A stretch of 64,000 nucleotides of DNA, taken from the NCBI GenBank assembly GCA_002749535.1, contig MZZL01000384.1, positions 7,410-71,409 of the forward strand, read 5' to 3'. Source of the stretch: Apophysomyces variabilis. Taxonomy: Eukaryota > Mucoromycota > Mucoromycetes > Mucorales > Mucoraceae. Shown piece after piece: positions 541 through 26,871 of this stretch. Made by a program: the position numbers and the translations under genes. Each line of letters starts with the position of its first letter. Within the stretch, counting starts at the first letter, position 1. The notes below the pieces were generated by a model. That model did no database searches. It worked only from the letters and a program-made list of their open reading frames with translations, and was not told where the DNA came from.

Positions 541-3500
541 CTACTCTACCGCAGTGGCCTTGTCAAGACACGATCTCTGAGATATCGCATTATCCCAGAT
601 TCTGCGACGGACAGATCGGCTGGAGTAAAACTTCCATAACCGAAGATCATTCTCGTTTGTCTTGAGTTGTCGCAGGTACTCCCGATATCTGTCATAAGTG
701 CTTCGTGGTGATCCTTCACTTAAAGCAGCCTCGATGTCGTCAATGTTGTTGGCAGCCTTGCGAGCTTCTAGCCAGTCGCGGTTTGGAATAGTTCTGCCAT
801 ACAGATAGCCTCGCTTGATAGTGAGCTAGGAACCGTATAGTCCAGGCTCCCTCGGTCAGAACACACTAGCAGCAGCACATAATTCTCCAAAGTCCAGACC
901 AACTACACCATCGTAATGCTGGAGATAATCGTACTGATCCCCAGATGAGCCAGCTTGCCATGTGTCCTTCAACGTCTCTCTTGTTGTTCGTCTGATCTCC
1001 GTCAAATACTTGCATGTAGTATTTCCACGACGTGACCTGAGCCAATCATTATATACAGTATAGGCGAACACTGTCAGTGTGAAAGACACGACGTCGAGAG
1101 AAACGAAGTTTGTTTTCATTGCCCGGTATTCGCTGGTTCAACCATCGCATGTAACCCCGGTCTCGGACGTCAACGCCTCCATCTCTTGTAATGGTAGCTT
1201 GCCAACGGATGTCGAAGAGTGCGCTGAATGGATCTCTGCTCTCGATGCCTTGGAGTCTTACACATGCATTTTGTAGATTGTCTCTCTCTGTAATTAAAAT
1301 ATAAGTGAATTTGCTCAACTACATACAATTAATAACTTCTACTTACCTCTTGTCAATTCAGCAATGCGTCGATCATTGGGACCAGCTGTTAATTCTTGCT
1401 TCAATTGCTGAATGATAGAACGAGAGAAATGCTCAATGCGAGTGAGCAAAGTTGTCATAAAGGAAAGATTGGAAGCGATAGCGATACGATGATGTGCTTG
1501 GAGAGGACATAAAACGAAAGATTGGGAATTACCTTCTCGTCTTTCCAGGAAATAGACCATAAATGGGATCAATCTTGCAGCCTTTGCCCTGGAAAGTTTG
1601 CCTCCATAAGTTCGGTGGAGCACATCATCCTCGTCATCTTCATCACCGTTCTCTTCATCATTGTTACCACCGTTTGTTCGTTGTGTCCCATTCTCACCAA
1701 GACATTCGGACAGATTGACCTCGGAAACTCGAATGCCTTTTACTTGAAGATTGCGCTCAGCGGTGATGAAATCTTCAATCTGGGTATGAACGTCGTTTGC
1801 TAAACCAGCAAGGATGTCGCCAGTTACTTGACGTTCTTCCTCTTGATTTTGCTCATATTCTTCAAAATCTTCTTGATCAGCACCAGCTTCGCTAATATCA
1901 ACTGACATGCCCCAGATTCGTTGAAATAAAGCAGTGATAAGCTTGTTCCTGTTTCTTGGCCATCCAGGGGGCACCGTTGCATGATTCTCAACTTCAAGTC
2001 GGCACGTGTCTCCATCAAATGCTTCAATGGAGTTCTTGCATCGATTCACCATGTTGGTTACAAACTTGTTGACTTGTTCACGGATATTAGCTTCAGCGAT
2101 GTATTGGAACCTCGGCTGTCATTCCTGTGCAGCTACATGTTGAATTCCGTCATGAACAGAATGTATAATGTCTTGAGTGAATTCATAATATCTTCCTTGA
2201 TCTGGAGCAGGCCAACCAACTGGTACTTGAGCCACTTGTTTCAGTCGCGATCGAGGATAATCGCAGTAACGATCCTTGAAGTTGTAAACGATGTTCTTGC
2301 GAAAATCAACACTGGCGCCATTGGCGATCTCAGTCACCATCTCTCCCTTGTACATCGGAGTTGGTGCTGTGCACATCACGGCCGAACAATCTTGATACCA
2401 TAACTTCCGTGCCTTCAAGAGAACGTTTCACTCCAGCGGTGTCGTAAGCATTCTTGACAGATAAAAGAAGGCTGTATCTGCCGTGAAGGCCTTGAAGAGG
2501 TTCGTTCCGTCGTCATTATACCCACGGAGCTGGCCGTCAGAGTGCAAAATATCTGATTGTGGTATATATTGAGCTTCGCTAGCTGCCTGGCGCGTGGCAA
2601 GACTTGGTTCACTTCTTCTCATCGTCTGATAGTTTGTTGCGCAATAAAAGATGTGTCGCCATAGGTTCTGAGCCGTGCGCTTACCATTCCGGAAGAGGAG
2701 TTCATAAAAGCTCAGCATTGCATCGTTGTCCAAGTTGTATGCTTCGCGTATGGCAATGTTGGCAATATGATAACCAACGTAACGGACATAAGACATATCA
2801 TCGATGATCTTGTCCATAACCTTTTGAATGAGTGAAGCTTCGTCTATGCCTTCCCGATCTGGCCTATTTCTTCTTCGTGCTCGATGAACAGCAGCTGCGA
2901 GTACAAACGAATAAAGACCAGCATCCGCAGTAGCAACATATCTGGAACTTTGATAAAGCGTAATATGATGACCGGTGTCCTCCTCGGTGTAAGTGATCTT
3001 TTCCAGGAAGGAGTCCCTGATTTCACCACTTGCGGCGTCCCTGATAAATTGTGCCTGCTGTCTCGACGGTCCCACGCGACCCTTTTTGGCGGGTCTGGTC
3101 TGCTTCTTACTACTTTTTGGAGCATGCGGTCCGGTGTCTTCCTCTTCAATCACACCTTCGTTAAGTTCGGGTGTCGGTTCGAGCAACCTGTATCGGCTTC
3201 CATAATCGGGACGCTGGTTGTGTCGCGCCGGAGTTGTCCCTGCCACAACCGAACAAGCGAGACTTTCAATAATGTTGGTATCGGCGTTTCGTAAACGGAT
3301 ATCGCCGTAATGAATAGGTTGCTCATCAGAATAAACTCCAGAAACTCGTGGCCTGCAAAACTGGTGGAGTGCAACGCTGAACCCATGCATTTCAGAATCT
3401 GGTACAAAGACACCGATGTTGTTCATCAAGGTCTGCAGCAAATTGTCCGCTTCATCGGCTTGTGGGACTTGTTCTAGTGCTGTCTAGACCGTTTTGAATG

Positions 3501-4516
3501 ATTTGCCTCGTAGATTTTTTGCATAATCATTTCCACATGTGGCTACCAAGACGACAAAACGGATTTGAGCCTACAGTGCAATATATTAATAACTGTGATC
3601 TTAAGTAGCAGCATATGAATACTTACATTGATAGCTTGTCCGTCTGTGATTGCAGTTTGCAGCCCCATGAAAGCTGTTAAAAGATCCCGCTTGGTTGATA
3701 CTGTCCCATTGTATCATTGGGGCCCGTGTCGCCAGTTCATCTTGGTTATGCGCTAGAAAGCATAGATAACATGAATTAGCGTATGCGTATTGGAGAAAGA
3801 GGGTAGGCTTATTAACTTACTGGAACATCCAGAGCACCTTGATAAGCGAATAGGTCGCCATATCGAGACATAATGGCTGACTGGACGCGCTCTCCGAGTG
3901 AGTCGCATAAATAGACGACTTCCGGGTCAGCCTCGAATGGAGCCTCGTGAATGAATATTCTCACTGGCTCGTTAGTGAAATTGCAATCATAAGGACGGGT
4001 GTGTTGTCTTGTGTTCAGCTCGTGAATGATTGCGCCTTTGATCGCTGGAGTAAAGCTGACCCACTGCTTGGCGTATTTTCTACGGAGATGCTCCCTCGCC
4101 GCAAAGTATAGTCTGCGGGGGTCTCCGGTCTGTCTTCGAGCCTTCCTCCAAGCCAAGTTCTTCTTGGCTTGTCTTGCGGCGTGGGTGGCTCTCTTGGCGG
4201 ATAGTCGGTCGCCATCGAAGATCAGACAGATTTTTGGGACATCACTGTTGTCGGCGAATGCATTAAGTTCGTTCATCGTACGGTACACGAAACGCCTGGC
4301 GACCTCAGCATGTTGATCTTGCTGCTGTTCTCGTCGTTGTCGATCACCAGTGGCGGTCAGAAAGTCCACTGCGAAGTCTTGAAGGAGCCAGAAAAAGTCA
4401 CAGCAGAAATCGACGTGAATGATCCCGACATGTTGTTGCCGCAGATGGTCGGGTATGTTTGTCGTGGTTGTCGCTCCTGCTTAGCGCAGATACGCATGGA
4501 ATCCTTTTAGACCCAT
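541..4516 (-). pseudogene. Decayed composite gene: FEN1/XPG-like nuclease joined to a Fanzor/TnpB-like RuvC nuclease
   Basis: Seen: the minus strand starts at 4516 with MGLKGFHAYLR, an XPG N-terminal signature. Exons 4516-3821, 3752-3627, 3570-1347 and 1287-541 are joined by GTAAGT donors and keep phase at each junction. The N-terminal part has IFDGDRLSAKRATHAAR (XPG N), EAPFEADPEVVYL and SRYGDLFAY (XPG-I acidic residues) and GNDYAKNLRG (helix-turn-helix region). The same large exon runs on without a frame change into Fanzor-like sequence: AARLIPFMVYFLERRE, then in exon 4 FSALFDIRW, FHTDSV (TDG-like), DGVVGLDFGE (RuvC-I Asp) and LRLWKFYSSRSVRRRIWD. Stops break it at 4481-4483, 3714-3716, 3484-3486, 2428-2430, 2119-2121, 856-858 and 826-828, and there is a frameshift near 1060-1080. 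RuvC-II, the zinc ribbon and RuvC-III are absent. From family knowledge, FEN1 proteins cut flaps and Fanzors are RNA-guided nucleases carried by transposons. The fusion is inferred from continuous phase. Confidence 0.75.
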
Positions 4517-6178
4517 GGTGCTACAAAGAATTGAACTGTAATATTTATAATGTAAAAATTAGTTGTGGGATACTCACAACTTTGCTTTGTTCTGAATGAG
4601 ATGTTTCCGCGCTTTTTCTAGCCAGTCTATCAGTATCCATACGAAAAATACAAGTGTTTGACTATGGTACTTACTGTTGTAAAAGATAAAGAAAAAGAAA
4701 AAGAAAAATGATAAATCTTGTGAATGCTTGTACTATGAACAAAACAACTGTTAGTGACGAGTTAATCCATGCGATCAGGATAAACTTACAGTGAAAAAAT
4801 GTAGAGTGAAATAGATAAGTAAATTTTGTTTAGAGTGAATACTTCGATAAAAGTAAACATGAAGTGAAAAAGAAGTATATACGTTTGTTTGACACGGCTG
4901 CTCCCTTTTATTCTTTGTCGTTAGCATTAATCAGAAAAAAAGGAGACGCTAGTCACATGTTGTCAGCCATATGCTGCTTTCTTTGTTTCCACTTCAGAAG
5001 GTGTGTAAAAAAGCTTTTATTATATTAATGTCATATCCAACATTCTATAACAAAACTTGGGTCGCAGAGGTTGTTAGCTTTAACTCCTTTTCCAGGTCAT
5101 CTATATAAAATATATCTTGTAGGCTTTTGGAGTAGAAAGAAAGCGTGGTTAGATTCGATCAAACATGAGAAAAACAGGATTCCAATAAGGTAATTACCTC
5201 GGGCACTACTCGCCAACATAATTCAGCGCAGTTATGATAAAATAAAACGTTGTTGACGTGTTATTCAGTGAGAATAGTAGGAGAGAAGTGCAAGAATAAA
5301 ACGCAAGTAGCGTCACAACAACTGGTCGCAGAGGGAGTGCCCCTGAAGGTACCTTCGTTATCATTTCTACCTGTACTTTCCATGTGTACCATTGTCATTT
5401 CTTTGATGCAATGTTATTAATTCAATAAGACTATTTATTTGTTTTTCCATCATGATCCTTAGCATTTGCATTTTGTATAACCAAATGAGCTTTCGGGCGC
5501 TCCATCAGTTGCTGAGATGCTACATATAGTTTGTTCCTCCGCTCTTTTCTTGATATTGTTACTGGCCAATATGATAAACGGCGTCTAGTTTATGGTAACA
5601 GCGCTCAAATAATTTGAGGGAGGAGTGTCAGAGGGGAGCTCCCGAGGTAAATCCCTTCCAACAAAGACATTAAAATAAGGTTTAAGGTGCCAACCTGTCA
5701 GATTTATGAAGATCCTGTCTAATCCGAGTAGAAAAAGGCTGGAGCCTAAATAAAAATAAAGTTCTAAAAGGAGTCTCTTCTTTGTTTGCTATGTATATAA
5801 TGATCATTATCAACAACATCTACCGCGACTGATTGTTCTTTGTTAAGAAGGAAAAGTTGACTTTAATAACTGACGGATGTCTAGTTATGGAGATATCCGG
5901 TCAAAACCTATAGATTTCTAGTCATACAATTTCCCGTCATGATATCTTTGCAACAATATTGTAAAAGAAAAGAGAACACAAAGAAGGTCAGATAGAGAAT
6001 ATAATTTCTGCCTACAACTGATTCAGACAATCTATTATTAGTGTAATTTATATGCAGTGAGAAAAAACAAGAGTGTAGGGTCATAACTGAGAATGGAAAG
6101 AGACAAGCAATAGATGCGAGACACTATAGAAAATACGGGTTCCTTCTAGTCTCTATCAGTGCCTATTGAGCTATTTCT
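4517..6178. other. Intergenic stretch upstream of the nuclease relic
   Basis: No convincing coding sequence. On the minus strand a short frame beginning at about 4640 (MDTDRLARKSAETSHSEQSK) ends at a GTGAGT donor just before the relic, but it does not join the relic's start in phase. It is therefore at most part of a 5' untranslated exon. The remainder is A/T-rich. Confidence 0.5.
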
Positions 6179-6229
6179 GGTTCCTGATATACTATTTTCT
6201 ATAAAGTAAAAAATAGTCCATTGAGAACC
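6179..6229. repeat. Hairpin repeat unit 1 (GGTTCC...GGAACC type)
   Basis: An imperfect 51-bp inverted repeat: GGTTCCTGATATACTATTTT pairs with the downstream arm AAAATAGTCCATTGAGAACC. The loop holds TATAAAG. It is almost the same as the unit at 6263-6313, which makes it a small non-autonomous repeat or a regulatory hairpin. Confidence 0.7.
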
Positions 6230-6262
6230 AATGTTACTTTCTGCAGCAGACTCTTAAACTTT

Positions 6263-6313
6263 GGTTCCTATTGTACTATTTTTCATTAAGTAAAAAATAG
6301 TACATCAGGAACC
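6263..6313. repeat. Hairpin repeat unit 2
   Basis: The second 51-bp unit, GGTTCCTATTGTACTATTTT ... AAAATAGTACATCAGGAACC, lies 33 bp after the first in the same orientation. Differences between the two units mostly fall in the left arm of one and the right arm of the other. Confidence 0.7.
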
Positions 6314-6503
6314 ACTTCTCATAGTGAAACTCAATGTAGGACTATGTTTATTTGAATAAAAACATTACTCTTTTACACTAAAATGTCCGTTGGTCTAGAT
6401 TGACAGGAGTGTAATCGAGGACTGTGCTCTGTAATAAGTGATTTGTAATTGCTTTCTAAAATGGAGAATTTTTTCCATAGCAAATCATAGAAGGTTGGCA
6501 TTA

Positions 6504-6691
6504 CAGTGCTTCCCCGCTAATGTCAATGACTTGGTTAGAGCCTATCGATTGAAAGCAGGCGGGGAGTCACAATAACGGGGAGATGCAATGGCTTGAATTA
6601 GCATAGAAACCTCTTTTTCGGGAATCTCAAAATGATTGAAAATAGGCGAGGATTGACATTAACGAAGATGGACATTAGCGGGGAGGCACTG
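6504..6691. mobile_element. 188-bp MITE with TA target duplication (Tc1/mariner-pogo type)
   Basis: Terminal inverted repeats start CAGTGCTTCCCCGCTAATGT on the left and, read on the other strand, CAGTGCCTCCCCGCTAATGT on the right. Each side is flanked by TA (6502-6503 and 6692-6693), the target duplication of the Tc1/mariner/pogo superfamily. An internal GACATTAACGAAGATGGACATTAGC-like duplication suggests that sub-terminal repeats are also present. There is no coding capacity, so transposition would need a transposase supplied elsewhere. Confidence 0.75.
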
Positions 6692-6934
6692 TATTCATTA
6701 TACGGAGGGAGTCAGTTAGCATGGCTTGATCCTGTGTTATGCAAGTCTATAGTTAAAGCCCATCTTCCCCTATTTAGACATAAGCAGGGTAGAGACTATC
6801 CATAGCAGCTGTGGATACGGCAAAGAACACACTCATCTACAACGAAAGTAGTGAGGAGTTAAAAATCGATTATTCTATATAAATATATAAAAATAGGATA
6901 AAATAACCATAGAAATCTCCAAAATATCAATGTC

Positions 6935-7215
6935 ATGAGTCGCGCAATCCACATCAATTCCGTTGCAAATTTCTATTGCACTGAAGCTAACAGTGGCTGT
7001 GCTCTTACTTCCCAAAATAGTCGTGCTGGTCGTGCCGTAAGTTATTATACTTGGCATGTATGTTAACAAAGAAACAGATACTAAACCTGATTTTTACATA
7101 GAGACGCCGTCCCCCTCAATGGGTGTGGCGCCATAAGCGCCAACAGCAACAGCAACAACAGGAGCAAGGGCAGCCAATGTCTGTGGACGAGGCTACTCTA
7201 GAAGAGCTACGTTGA
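6935..7215 (+). CDS. 72-codon two-exon remnant with Gln-rich basic tail, unrecognised
   Basis: Exon 1 (6935-7036, 34 codons) starts MSRAIHINSVANFYC and ends at a GTAAGT donor. Exon 2 (7102-7215, 38 codons) follows a TTTTACATAG acceptor in the same phase and reads RRRPPQWVWRHKR, a run of Gln, then MSVDEATLEELR and a stop. Both boundaries are good splice sites. The family is not recognised. It lies between a MITE and copy 1 of the 1.1-kb repeat, so it may be the last exons of a decayed transposon gene and not a free-standing gene. Confidence 0.3.
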
Positions 7216-7276
7216 ACAGCTGGGCGAATAAACTTTTTTACTTTTTTACTTTGTTTCTTTTTTCTTGTTTTTGTTT

Positions 7277-8402
7277 TATGTTCTCTTGATCTTTATAGCA
7301 TACCTATTGTCTGCTAAAATCTTCTGCAGCCTTCTTATCTCATATGGTTTGAAAGTTCGTCTGCATCACACCCGGTAAAAGCTATATTGGTATGTCTTCG
7401 AATAGAGTACGTAAAAGTTGCATCATCTTCGGGTGCATCCGAACAAAGTTTACATAGTTTATATCATTTCCATTTCATTGTACGATGGATTTGCACGGAA
7501 TGTTACATAAATATTACACGAGTGGATATAGTTTATAACTCGGTGTACTGTTCCCATCAATAATCCTCAATGTCTATCTTTAATTCATGCTCACAGAAAA
7601 TGGCGGGAAAAGAACGAAAACGACATATGAAGAAAAATAAACAAGTGGGCGACATGCTTTTTATTGGCGTTTTTTCTGCTATATAAACGGAGTAATGGTT
7701 GAAACGCCCACCCAGATCATATTCACTGCAGTAAAAGTGTAAGAATACGTAAAGTACCCTTTATTGATCTTTTTGCAAGTAGGACATCTTGACAACTCGC
7801 AATGCATCCCAAGTTCTGATATTAAGAAGTCGATTTGCTTATGGGATAGATTGTGAAGGTATTAGGTATGTCATTATTCTAGCTTACAGACTCTGGATGC
7901 GTCTTATAGAGGTTTGTGGATTACTTTCTTTTTCGAGCTAAGTGAATGACATCGAGTTTCAACCTAGCACTATCTAGTTTCTTGGGTTTATTCAGTGGTT
8001 CAAATGAGCGCAAAAATAATAATTGTGTCCGCCCAGGCTAGATCAATGTGATAAAAATTGAGGGGGGATGGAAAAATATCTGGGAAGGGCGTGAGTATCA
8101 AAAAATCCTTTTTGCAAGGAAGAAACGGGCGGCAGCAGGCTGGACAAGGACCCTGATGCGAAGGATAGGTTTTGAGGAGATATCGATATGTATTAGGCAT
8201 GTGGATTGAATGGACGGGTTGTATTAGAGGAAATAGATTCAACAGACTTGGCATTTATGGAAACTTGAGCCAATCATCTCAAGAAGTGAAGTGTTGTGTT
8301 GTTTGAACCTACTAATTTCAGCCTTGGCAGCAGCGAGTTCTGCTTTTTGACTGTTTAACAGTGGGCATAGGGAGAGCTCAAGGATGTGGATGTACTTTAA
8401 AA
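7277..8402 (+). repeat. Dispersed repeat, copy 1 (segments A-B-C)
   Basis: This region is matched by 23268-24415. Segment A (about 7278-8060) and segment C (about 8291-8400) match copy 2 on the opposite strand. Segment B (8068-8252), beginning ATGGAAAAATAT and ending ACAGACTTGGC, matches copy 2 on the same strand. A G-run (8062-8067) sits at the A/B boundary. The small minus-strand open frame at 8000-8254 is not conserved as an intact frame in copy 2 and is not called. Confidence 0.8.
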
Positions 8403-8455
8403 TGAGGTAAAGCGGTAGCTAAGCAGAAAAAGGACGGCATTGAATTTTTTTTTTT

Positions 8456-8475
8456 GGGGGGGGGGAGATACTGTA
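8456..8475. repeat. Probable element end GGGAGATACTG-TA
   Basis: A run of G followed by GGAGATACTG and TA. Copy 2 of the repeat is preceded by the reverse complement, TA-CAGTATCTCC, at 23211-23223. A CAGT end with adjacent TA fits the terminus of a pogo/Tc1-type element. The opposite terminus was not found for either copy. Confidence 0.4.
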
Positions 8476-9648
8476 CTAAAAGGCAAATGGGATGGTCTTT
8501 GTTTCTTTGTGAAAATACTTCCCAGTTAAAGAGAGTAAAGACGATGGCAAACGAAAGGGTGACTTATATGCAAATCATGATTAATAAAGAATGCTTTATT
8601 TCCACGCCTTAAACAATAATCGATAACTGATATCCTGATGATCCCTGTCTTCGATAGATCACGGAATAATTGCCTTGATCAATTCTTGTCAGTTTTATAT
8701 GGATATGTTGATAAGATGTCAAAGTATGAAAGCCTAGGAAGTAAACGTCGACTTTTTCAGTCTCGCTTATGTTCGCGTTCCTTACTTCCATCTTCATGTA
8801 TCAATTCTAACTTAAAGAACGGTAATTTTACTTGCATCAACAGATAATGTTATATTCGGTCTTCCCATCTTGTATGAAATGGGTAATTCCATAAGGGATA
8901 TGTTGTTGGTTGCATGAAGTCTTGCTGCTAAGACAGTCCTCCATAATCAGGTCCGTCAATCGCTGACATGACCCTTGCAATGTTGCGCAGAAATATCAGG
9001 AGTACTGTTGACAGCTGCTGGTATCTGAAACAAAACGTCGTGCGCGCGCTTAGAGGAAATTGCACCAAGGACACTCAAATAACGAGTGTAGAAAAGTACA
9101 AGAGCCCATTGCAACGACAAATGCCTCCTCGCTACACTGTCTGCGCCATAAAGCAAGGATAAAGCGATCAGACTACACGGCATTTTCTTATATTCAAAGA
9201 CAGTTGCATCCAGTCAATTCTGTACTACAGGTTGCTAGCAATCAAAGCCGTATGTGCCCAGAAATCCTTGTTCCCGATTAACCAGTTCGGATACTATGTT
9301 TAAAGAAAATTTGTTGCACAGAGAACTCCAATACGGGATCCATAACTGAAGGCCGTGCCGTTGCGCAAGTAAGCGATACGGACTAGTGGGTTTTAGCTTT
9401 TTGGAAGAGGTATTGCCTCTTTGATGATTGGATATGGATGGATCGATTCTCAAGAGAAAGACACGCTTGCTTGTTTTTACACAATTTAACCTAACAATCC
9501 TTGTATCTTCCGATCGATAGTGTTTGTTTCAATAATATTTTTGTTGTTTATTCGTCTGCGAGGGTGACACAATGGCTTATAGCGATCTTTTTCGTGCCAG
9601 ATAAATGCAAGAAATGAGATATGAGTGTTTTTTTTAATACAGCTGTAA
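8476..9648. other. Intergenic stretch, no gene seen
   Basis: Only short overlapping frames on both strands without splice-supported continuation or recognisable motifs. The last part is the 3' flank of the RNA polymerase III gene. Confidence 0.5.
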
Positions 9649-23210: not shown

Positions 23211-23267
23211 TACAGTATCTCCCAAAAATAGTTTCGCAAACTACGAAAATCGAAGTCGCAGTCCAAT

Positions 23268-24415
23268 GGAATTAAAAAGTGCATCCACATCCTTGAGCTC
23301 TCCCCATGCCCACTGTCAAACAGTCAAAAGCAGAACTCGCTGCTGCCAAGGCTGAAATTAGTAGCTCAAACAACACAACGCTTCCCTTCTCCAGATGGTA
23401 GGTTCTAGTTTCCCTATGGAAAAATATCGGGGAAGGGCGTGAGTATCAAAAAGCCTTTTTGCAAGGAAGAAGCGGGCGACATCAGGCCGGACAAGGGCCG
23501 TGATGCGACGGATAGCTTTTGCGGAGATATCGATATGTATTAGGCATGTGAATTGAATGGACGGTTTGTATTAGAGGAAATAGGTTCAACAGACTTGGCG
23601 TCTATTCCCCCCCCCCCGAAATTTTTATCACATTGATCTAGCCCGGGCGGACACAATTATTATTTTTGCGCTCATTTGAACCCACTGAATAAACCCAAGA
23701 AACTAGATAGTGCTAGGTTGAAACTCGATGTCATTCACTTAGCTCGAAAAAGAAAGTAATCCACAAACCTCTATAAGACGCATCCAGAGTCTGTAAGCTG
23801 GAATAATGACATACCTAATACCTTAACAATCTATCCCATAAGCAAATTGACTTCTTAATATCAGAACTTGAGATGCATTGCGAGTTGTCAAGATGTCCTA
23901 TTTGCAAAAAAGATCAATAAAGGGTACTTTGTGTATTCTTGAATCTTTAGTGCAGTGAATACGTTCCAGTTAGGAATTTGAATTATTATTCCGGTTATCT
24001 AGCAGAAAAACCGGTAATGGGAAGCATGTCACCCACTTGTTTATTTTCATTCACCTGCCATTTTCGTTCTTTTCCCGTCATTTTCTGTAAGCATGACATA
24101 AATTTGAATCAAGATAGACATTGAGGTATTATTGATGGGAACAGTAGACCGAGTTATAAACTGTATCTACACGCGTAATATTTATGTAACATTCCATGCA
24201 AATCCGTTGTACAATGAAAAGGAAATGACATAAACTATGTAAACTTTGTTCGGATGCATCCCAAGATGATGCAACTTTTACGTACTCTATTCGAAGACAT
24301 ACCAAGATAGTTTTTTACCGGGTGTGATGCAGACGAACTTTCAAACCATATGAGATAAGAAAGCTGCAGAAGACTTTAGCAGACAATAGGTATTCTATAA
24401 AAATTAAGAGAACAT
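23268..24415 (-). repeat. Dispersed repeat, copy 2 (inverted, with flipped middle segment)
   Basis: Matches copy 1 at 7277-8402. On the plus strand the order is reverse-complemented C (about 23274-23380), direct B (23416-23599), a run of C (23607-23616), then reverse-complemented A (about 23618-24415). Overall the copy is inverted, but B keeps the copy-1 orientation, so B is inverted inside one of the two copies. A TA-CAGTATCTCC motif at 23211-23222 precedes the copy and may be its end. Confidence 0.8.
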
Positions 24416-24602
24416 GATAACCCCAACTGCACGACGTCGAACAAGAGCCAGCCAAACCGAGACAATGGTTGAACCACCCAGGTCTCACAGACGAATCATC
24501 CGACGAGAAGAAGAAAGACCAGTATCTTCCCGAGCTCCTTTAAGGCGATCTGAGATGCAGCAAGCAAAAAGGCAGAAAAGGATCCACGAGTCAAGTGGAT
24601 AG
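24414..24602 (+). CDS. Small basic open frame beside repeat copy 2, doubtful
   Basis: A 62-codon frame beginning MITPTARRRTRASQ and ending RQKRIHESSG. It is strongly basic (many Arg) and begins exactly where homology to repeat copy 1 stops. No domain is recognised. It could be the tail exon of a decayed transposon gene or chance. No upstream exon was established. Confidence 0.2.
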   Translation: MITPTARRRTRASQTETMVEPPRSHRRIIRREEERPVSSRAPLRRSEMQQAKRQKRIHESSG

Positions 24603-26871
24603 GGCTTTTACGCCCGGTATTTAGTAAGTGTCATTGAATACTATTGTTATTTTTCTTCTATTACTCACCAACTGGAATTTATATATGCATCTTGCATTCA
24701 CTTGGCGGGGAGATGGGTATGGCGTCGTCAGTTTTATGACAGGTATGTAAAAGTGGTCAACTCGAACTCTTATAACACGGCAATTAATGTAATTTGTTAG
24801 CGTCAAGCCCAATTTCCAAAATGCGCCAAGCGAATTTGCTAGATGCCGACTTTAATTTTTTGAAATAAAGTACACAAACTAAATCAAGCCTAAATCGTGG
24901 TGTATACAAACTGACCCAAACACAAGGCCATAAAGTCTTCTCTATAGCATGCACTGCTACAAAGGTTGTCATGAAACCGTTACTGGTGAATTCTGATTGA
25001 TCGGCTAGAGCAATGTTCAGCAACACTTTGTGATTAGTAGTTCAGGCAATTTTTCCAGCAGATGTTCGCCGAGCATATGGATCTGCGGTTCGCTGTGTTA
25101 TATCGGTGCCAAAAAAGAGGATAGCAAACTAGTCCATTACTTATTGTATGTTTGGTTTGAATGAAAGAGTTAGCGAGTGTTTTGGCGCTTATCGATGATT
25201 AAAGCTTTTTGAAGTGGACGAGAAGGATTGTATTATATACATCAAGGTGTTGGCCACTTAAGCTACTACCGTAAACAATGCAGCCAAAGCCAAGCCAGAA
25301 AGGCTCAATTTTTAGGGGAGCCGTTACGATGAAAAGTACGCGTTTTCTCGCAAATGGGATATTTTTTATGAATTGCGGCGAGTCTTGAAATCCGAGGTAA
25401 GGATTTAGATTTATTTGTAAAGAGATTTGGAAGCTACTTTATATTTTATGTGCTATAGATTCTGACAGTTTAGCGGAAGAGAAGTAAGATTGATTTTTAT
25501 GCGTCGCTATATATTTTTAGGGACAAAAAAGAATTTGGGAATGCAGGGTCCGATGGTACCTTGACTGCTCTGCTTAGTGTAATACTCTGAAGCAAGCTTT
25601 ACAGGCTGAATTTCATAACTGGGTTCCTGTCTTAATCTGTTTCATTCCAATTCTACTTCTTAGAGTCTGTGTCGGAGGTCAAAATTCAGATCATCGCCAG
25701 CTGGTCGGACACTGCGACTAGATTAAGTGAAACAAAGGAATTTTTTATATGTATAAATTTCTGTTCAGGTTACAGTTTGCATCCTGCGAGGAATAAAGAA
25801 AGCTCAAATCAACACCTGGCTATTTGCTGACTTTTGCTTAACGAAGAACCTGCTTAAGAACATATCCTGTATATCTTCCGAACATTCAAGATCTAGAACC
25901 CGAAATACATCGTTACCGTTGGTCGCTGCAGAGTTCCTATAATTCCTTGATAATTTTGAGAAATCTTTTAAAGCCGGATGAAAAAGCTGTTTTGGAAAAC
26001 CTTGAGAAGCTTTAGCCGCATGAACGTTTCCAAGCGTTATTATTTTGGCTTCCAACATTAACGTTGATTGAATAAAAAGGCTCTAAGCGCAGTGACTTGT
26101 GGTTTTACGTGCTTTCAGTGAAAAGATCACCTTAATAAAGTTTGTTCCGCGTAACAGTGAACTTAAAACAAAGGAAAGAGGGCATTGTCATTATACTCCA
26201 CGGAATGCTGTCAGAATATCAGAATTTTAGTATAGCATACTCCGATTTCATTGATCTTTTACAGCCGTTTCTACTGGGTTACGCACAAAAGGTCCGATGT
26301 GTTTTATTTGTCGGAGAAGTTTGTTTCCATTTGCTGTTTGATTGGCAGATGACTTCCTTTCGGAGAAGTTCCAGTTACTGGGTAACTAACGAGGGCAATA
26401 CCATACCAACTTCATCAGTGCATGGAAACAGTGGATGACAAGTCATTACGAATGATGTTTAATGGAAGAATGAGAACAAATGATATGTAAATAGACATTG
26501 CGGCCCAACGCTACAAAAAAGGACAGACATGAAATCTGTACCAAAAATAACTTTTCCATGATCGGATTGAAAGTTCCGTTTGTAGATCTTTCTTGGCTCA
26601 ACTCCGAGAGATCAAAAACGAGATACGTCACCTAGGTTATCGAGAGTGAAAAAAAAATAGTTGCCAGACATACACCTCTTTGTTCTTGCTCTTGTTCGTC
26701 CTCTCTTTTCATTTCTGTTGCCCCTTTCCTTTCCCTTTTCTCGATTTATACAGATCCTTTTTTCTTCTTTACCCCAAAAAGAGCGTATACAAAAAGGATC
26801 ATATCTCTTTTTTGGTTTGATAGAGCATAAACTCCTTCCCATACTTTAACATCATCATCACAACCTATTGA
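24603..26871. other. Intergenic stretch, no supported gene
   Basis: Holds two medium frames (25804-26058 minus and 26142-26438 plus) that show no recognisable motif and no consistent splice continuation. The last 200 bases are pyrimidine-rich (long CTTTT tracts), typical of a promoter/5' leader before the transporter start. Confidence 0.4.

Follow-up and report, generated by a model that had tools for sequence, protein, structure and literature searches.

A decayed Mucorales transposon gene that probably joined an XPG-family nuclease to a TnpB/Fanzor-type nuclease

Does a transposon of Mucorales fungi encode two nucleases in one protein, and what might such a protein do? The question is raised by a 64,000-nucleotide stretch of Apophysomyces variabilis DNA, referred to here as the window, which covers positions 7410-71409 of contig MZZL01000384.1 (C68 in our survey of the 38.7-Mb genome in 126 contigs). 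A preliminary description of its letters had proposed that an ancestral single protein combined a FEN1/XPG-type flap nuclease with a Fanzor/TnpB-type RuvC nuclease. Our preferred reading, to which we assign a probability of roughly 0.6, is that window positions 8473-557 are a dead, truncated copy of a Mucorales DNA transposon with mariner-like ends, whose gene fused an EXO1/FEN1-type to a TnpB/Fanzor-type nuclease with a role in guided cutting plus resection. The fused architecture itself, in which an N-terminal XPG 5' nuclease is followed by a C-terminal RuvC nuclease of the TnpB/Fanzor type, is very probable from the comparisons below.

The fused gene, its relatives and its genomic copies

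The gene lies at window positions 4516-557 (minus strand) as a dead, 3'-truncated copy with four exons. Exon 1 (4516-3821) carries the XPG N and I regions (MGLKGF start, DFCC, DGDRL, APFEADP and SRYGDLFAYQG) and has a profile match to Exonuclease 1. Exon 2 (3752-3627) is in phase, and exon 3 (3570-1347) holds the last XPG motif (GNDYAKNLRG), a linker and the N-terminal portion of the Fanzor-like part in one ancestral frame. The following intron (1346-1288, GTAAGT...TTACAG) keeps the phase, and the truncated exon 4 (1287-557) contains a TDS motif, the RuvC-I sequence DGVVGLDFGE and a FYSS...RRRIWD block. The XPG-family nuclease comes first and the TnpB/Fanzor-type RuvC nuclease second, and the two share the long exon 3 and its frame. 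The first three exons and the junction into 1287, as originally described, are all present with GT..AG introns and preserved phase. The copy is indeed dead, as had been stated, because five stop codons interrupt exon 1 (4483-4481), exon 2 (3716-3714) and exon 3 (3486-3484, 2430-2428 and 2121-2119) and because the frame of exon 4 is lost near 1050. Beyond 557, it is no longer homologous to the other copies and therefore lacks the zinc finger and the RuvC-III part. Exon 4 had been drawn from 1287 to 541; the gene reaches 557, positions 541-556 are foreign sequence, and the start of the element is at 8473. In Pfam, the window's own pieces scored poorly, with E=0.21 for exon 1 against XPG_N and no TnpB match, and the domain identity of the gene was therefore taken from the matches of its relatives.

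An exon-by-exon reading of the copy on contig C64 gave 1543 codons in four exons, with both parts, six stops and zero frameshifts, and a stretch of 667 codons is open across the linker and the Fanzor-like part. When this reading was compared with 5.8 billion proteins, two matches were returned. P0002, a predicted protein of Lichtheimia hyalospora with 1416 amino acids, is 36% identical at 93% query coverage, contains both domains and is free of stops. It starts with MGIKGL, runs through the XPG motifs to GNDY and through a linker alignable with the window family, and ends in a C-terminal finger and RD motif. In its XPG half, the acidic positions with a metal-binding, catalytic role in FEN1/EXO1 are kept (D37, D103, E191, D193, D213, D215 and D282). 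The RuvC positions are kept as well (D1126, E1322 and D1381); both sets were read from the places of the motifs. P0001 from Apophysomyces ossiformis (1036 amino acids, 80% identity over 72% of the query) spans the junction and is incomplete on either side, with no first XPG part and no RuvC end. The linker is conserved between P0001 and P0002. As judged from sequence, the fusion occurs in two genera, in part in Apophysomyces and complete in Lichtheimia, and the catalytic positions are conserved in both domains. The search for proteins with both segments was thus answered by one complete and one partial case, and homologues are not always separate genes.

Searches with the separate halves added P0003 and P0004, which have the RuvC part only, and P0005-P0010, which have the XPG part only. 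In the XPG-half search, only the 8000 candidates sharing the most words were scored, and a length rule limits the returns to short proteins and excludes full-length fusions. The ten relatives comprise one with both domains complete (P0002), one with both in part (P0001) and eight with a single domain. This count could be taken to mean that two neighbouring genes were joined in error by the gene models and by the first reading, as P0003 and P0004 on one side and P0005-P0010 on the other would be expected from two genes. However, a single exon, with 667 open codons in the C64 copy, holds both the final XPG motif and the N-terminal portion of the Fanzor-like part, P0001 and P0002 both span the junction with a linker conserved in both, and P0005-P0010 came from a search that could return short proteins only. 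Moreover, the models of P0007-P0009 seem to run through the exon-1 splice site, which is what gene calls made without splicing would do. We consider a joining error very improbable. In two scans of viral contigs, with two short peptide patterns apiece, relatives of either domain were not found.

Within the genome, 11 loci on 11 contigs match the Fanzor-like exon-3 segment 2118-1339 (21 rows) and 13 loci match XPG exon 1 (20 rows). Four long copies, those of C64, C75, C59 and the window, show the same order of XPG exon, linker and Fanzor-like part; in C75, the last part is set off by a run of N. An old shortened copy (L017/L050) keeps both parts, with an XPG part that is 67% identical and RuvC matches that are long. 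Another old copy, L015, was shortened differently and retains an XPG part with 55% identity and two RuvC pieces of only 17 and 23 residues. The proposed ancestral single protein is thus supported by the one-frame reading of C64, by the predicted P0002 and by both old copies. No RuvC match was found at the XPG loci L013, L014, L016, L019, L020 and L023, where the flanks of at most 1.5 kb are too short to exclude one.

The ratio of nonsynonymous to synonymous substitution rates (dN/dS) was estimated by the Nei-Gojobori method with the C64 copy as the reference. For XPG exon 1, it was 0.25-0.45 in L013, L014, L015, L016, L019, L020, L041 and L050, all with dS above 0.3, and 0.47 and 0.52 against two young copies. 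For exon 4, it was 0.19 in L015 (54 codons), 0.55 in L035, 0.49 in L050 and 0.57 in the rearranged L040; against the young copies it was 0.42-0.81, in line with pseudogenes. The linker gave 0.45-0.68, the rest of exon 3 gave 0.52-0.79, and the values for the short exon 2 (31-42 codons) were scattered from 0.15 to 0.96; L037 was saturated. These ratios indicate that purifying selection acted on the XPG part in the lineages that spread and, less clearly, on the RuvC part.

Identity of the two nuclease domains

The XPG half was examined with family profiles against the PDB. A profile of three sequences (A2) matched Exonuclease 1, which we take to be the human chain, with E=3.9e-6 for the whole chain and 8.5e-4 for the best single stretch, and an eight-row profile (A4) matched it again more weakly (4.3e-4). 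In these alignments, D78, E150, D152, D171 and D173 of Exonuclease 1 fall on acidic residues of the family, and K85 and R92, presumably its gateway residues, fall on a lysine and an arginine. The preliminary description had suggested searches with models of XPG_N, XPG_I and the TnpB/OrfB RuvC and zinc-ribbon domains. XPG_N was found above the Pfam cut-off in P0007 and P0008 only among the ten proteins, and P0004 supplied the TnpB domain (PF07282), but XPG_I stayed below the cut-off in every protein scanned. The profile matches identify this half as an XPG-family nuclease whose closest solved relative is Exonuclease 1. It shares with EXO1 and FEN1 the MGIKGL start and the DG, APFEAD, DGDL and GNDY motifs, and differs from them by long insertions and by the fused RuvC nuclease.

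For the RuvC half, a C-terminal profile (A6) was compared with 177,635 distinct PDB chains. The best match was Fanzor1 of Spizellomyces punctatus (SpuFz1, 8GKH) with E=4.6e-4, followed by one TnpB (9NZP) with E=0.026, and nothing else was returned among these chains up to E=10. Single-sequence PDB searches with the C-terminal part, exon 1, P0002 and P0004 gave no nuclease relative. A long gapped profile (A3) gave none in the PDB either, whereas the domain-restricted profiles succeeded; NCBIfam showed no relevant match. The cut-off of PF07282 (26.3 bits) was passed by P0004 at 31.7 bits, P0002, P0003 and the C64 piece stayed below it at 21.9-22.9 bits, and all four members of A6 had E values of 1 or less. 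The expectation that exon 4 would match TnpB/Fanzor models was therefore borne out through the relatives. In the A6 alignment, the E and D of the family fall on SpuFz1 chain positions 935 and 1000, which are 65 apart. The SpuFz1 metal ligands named in a passage of PMC10432273, E541 and D606, are also 65 apart.

A passage of PMC3627910 gives the TnpB/Fanzor motif as D-X(125,275)-[TS][TS]-X-X-C4 finger-X(5,50)-RD. With the finger spacings relaxed and C or H allowed as the last finger residue, this motif is present in P0002, P0003 and P0004, which are all three relatives that reach the C-terminus, and the pattern arose in 0, 0 and 1 of 2000 shuffles, respectively. The strict C4 finger, with CxxC at the second pair, is limited to P0004 and the C64 piece. 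A rearranged glutamate at the Fanzor position (Ealt) stands six residues before the zinc finger (E1322 in P0002, E674 in P0003 and E511 in P0004) and aligns with the equivalent of E541 in SpuFz1; the bare pattern ExxxxxxCxxC arises in 19-36 of 2000 shuffles. The same three proteins retain the RuvC D-E-D positions. A TDG motif, which in Fanzor1 belongs to the WED domain, is found in three of four rows (P0003, P0004 and the C64 copy) and reads TNG in P0002. A passage of PMC10711439 describes DPG at RuvC-I as a Fanzor fingerprint. The RuvC half is assigned to the TnpB/Fanzor superfamily by these motifs and profile matches, and we filed it as Fanzor-like and not as Fanzor1 because DFG replaces this fingerprint. 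The original Fanzor label is therefore better given as Fanzor-like: the family has Ealt and, in three of four rows, TDG, but not DPG.

The closest known systems differ from the family in several ways. SpuFz1, its best PDB profile match, has the same Ealt six residues before the finger, a TDG-type motif and an RD after the finger, and likewise belongs to a eukaryotic transposon that also has derivatives without the open reading frame (ORF). In contrast to SpuFz1, the family has DFG for DPG, an additional N-terminal XPG nuclease and a linker of about 460 residues, and the second finger pair is not CxxC in P0002 and P0003. TnpB of IS200/IS605 (9NZP) is the second and only other PDB profile match, and DFG fits its D-hydrophobic-G; unlike TnpB, the family has the Fanzor-position glutamate, a much longer protein and a eukaryotic gene with introns. 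PpFz1, as a passage of PMC11423790 presents it, is also a Mucorales Fanzor with an added domain, but this FRI domain binds cyclophilins and the passage mentions no second nuclease.

A possible role in guided cutting and resection

We tentatively propose that the fused protein would couple guided cutting to 5' resection. The C-terminal domain would use an RNA from the 3' end of the element as its guide and cut a site without the element, such as the donor site left empty by excision. The tethered 5' nuclease would then resect or trim the 5' ends of the break, and repair would be steered away from simple rejoining and toward recopying the element from a homologous template. To move, the element would need a mariner-type transposase from another source. 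SpuFz1 leaves 5' overhangs according to a passage of PMC11423790, and these would make a fitting substrate for a 5' nuclease. Perhaps, though we hold this view a little more loosely, the element has an RNA-guided nuclease with its own EXO1-like resection nuclease, such that one polypeptide cuts, prepares the ends and biases repair as a self-contained homing machine.

Several observations weigh against the reading that we prefer. The 3' stem of the element is modestly more stable than its shuffles (z scores of -1.75 and -1.34), and compensatory changes are absent from its 34 outermost pairs among 10 similar copies. The Fanzor match of A6 is weak in the best single stretch (0.041), no Fanzor was found by the single-sequence PDB searches with the C-terminal part, P0002 and P0004, and RuvC-I reads DFG, not DPG, in P0001, P0002, P0003, P0004 and the window. 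None of the eight copies with frames listed has a fully open frame, and P0002 is a gene prediction. P0003 (L. corymbifera, 769 amino acids) has the RuvC part only and starts at a methionine that is internal to P0002. It may be a truncated gene model or a true short form, and a separate shorter product is possible.

As folding and covariation at the 3' end gave no guide RNA, the fusion could work without one: the TnpB-like half would only bind the ends of the element, and the XPG half would trim flaps in excision or gap repair. The mariner-like ends, which require some host or transposase step, would agree with this. However, the RuvC D-E-D is kept in P0002, P0003 and P0004, a conservation that a mere DNA binder would not be expected to show; we regard a guide-free function as unlikely. 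5' nucleases of the XPG fold can also act on RNA, and one that is fused to an RNA-guided enzyme could process the guide of its partner in cis. The XPG half might then act on RNA instead of DNA ends, for example by trimming the guide from the transposon transcript. This is quite improbable, given that Exonuclease 1, which this half matches best in sequence, is a DNA exonuclease and that a lysine and an arginine are aligned with K85 and R92 of that enzyme.

The fusion bears on why transposons carry Fanzors. The benefit of a Fanzor to its carrier is unsettled, and a fusion made by nature that adds a 5' nuclease and conserves both active sites points to the steps that must follow the cut. It suggests that cutting DNA and readying the cut for repair could be the work of a single protein. 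A fused protein would allow guided cleavage and end processing to be switched off separately and, if active, would provide a natural model for nucleases that bias repair to homology-directed outcomes. No XPG-Fanzor/TnpB fusion was found in the 5.39 million open-access papers searched, with most subscription journals and bioRxiv preprints as such outside this scope. A passage of PMC11071296 uses the ambiguous phrase 'candidate Fanzor flap endonuclease homologs' for large animal viruses and does not describe a fusion.

The carrier element and its derivatives

The long element extends from 8473 to 557 on the minus strand, with its 3' part lost after 557 and a mariner-like 5' end (CAGTATC) that follows a TA at 8475-8474. 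It is homologous from 8443 to 557 to the C64 copy, in which the element measures about 8.9 kb. Long, short and miniature inverted-repeat transposable element (MITE)-like copies have in common a 5' end in which TA is followed by CAGTATCTCCCAAAAAT and a 3' end in which ATTTTTGGAAATAAAG is followed by TA. The ends CAGTATCTCCCAAAAAT and CTTTATTTCCAAAAAT are imperfect inverted repeats of mariner-like character (TA followed by CAGT). All 10 element 5' ends examined have a TA in front of them and all 9 element 3' ends have one behind them, with both seen in eight copies. The search strings for this count did not include the TA, and unrelated or interior matches in the window MITE, L040, L041 and L050 were left out; in L050, where homology stops before the 3' tip and no 3' end is readable, the match TGTACAGTGTCCT was not assessed.

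No ORF of more than 84 amino acids lies wholly inside 4517-8473 on either strand, and none of ten ORFs from this region scored above the cut-off in Pfam. The nearest transposase-like name was Transpos_assoc on 7116-7292 (E=0.038, 14.6 versus 27.7 bits). The element thus appears to have no recognisable transposase and the fused protein to be its only sizeable gene. At least 171 DDE_3 transposase matches occur in the genome (150 of 411 candidates scored). According to passages of PMC3627910, PGv-1 and related mariner elements likewise have mariner-type ends with TA and a Fanzor1 aboard, and PGv-1 has a second nuclease (GIY-YIG) beside Fanzor1 in one element. Unlike the XPG half, this second nuclease has a different fold and is a protein of its own, and PGv-1 carries a transposase gene. 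Some PGv-1 relatives with mariner ends encode Fanzor1 only (Bao and Jurka 2013, PMC3627910).

A 5' leader (8473-7426, minus strand) is common to the long, short and MITE-like copies. The short Fanzor-only copies L042, L043, L044, L046, L047 and L049 were considered as separate Fanzor elements, and this was rejected; they are best read as an amplified internal deletion because they share the 5' leader of the long copies and, where sequenced, their 3' end. The window also contains a MITE-like deletion derivative (23213-24870, plus strand), in which the leader is joined to the 3' end and a TA stands at both ends. An exact empty site that would prove a TA target duplication was not found: three other sites match the joined flanks of this MITE at 81-83% but cross the junction by 5-16 bases only, and the search with a second insertion gave no empty site.

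The bases next to the flanking TA are unevenly distributed. The exact 3' end with GTA occurs 87 times in the genome, long and short copies included, and the base after its TA is C in 79, T in 8 and A or G in none. Among 17 exact 5' ends, the TA is preceded by A in 11 cases and by G in 6 (C was not searched). This would represent either an oriented RTAY preference, reminiscent of a target-adjacent motif, or end bases that are part of the element.

The leader includes a segment of about 190 bp (8068-8258) that has one orientation in the C64 copy, the C115 copy (L043) and the window MITE and the opposite one in the window's long copy, L042, L044, L045, L046, L047 and L049, as if it flips. It also contains two short ORFs on the minus strand, at 7679-7861 and 8239-8418, one coiled-coil-like (KAELAAAKAEISRLKQHN) and one with a CPTC motif (CELSRCPTCKKINKG). 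Both are recognisable in 8 of 8 leaders compared, some of them broken (by a stop in the case of L047 and by loss of frame in that of the window MITE), and they perhaps encode a small second protein. At the other end of the window's long copy, positions 430-556, which replace the 3' end of the gene, contain the motif TTTTACCCA in repeated form and may be part of a different mobile element.

Smaller derivatives were observed as well. L047 contains at 8295-8550 (gene orientation) a minimal derivative of 255 bp, composed of about 70 bp from the 5' end and 190 bp from the 3' end, whose final bases are missing; the derivative is inverted and lies about 470 bp after a short copy. In about 55 rows, the match is confined to roughly the last 30 residues of a query (residues 273-302 of L039:6524-7432), and most of these rows have an open frame of about 64 codons over the basic C-terminal tail of the protein. 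These are probably MITE-like copies such as that of the window.

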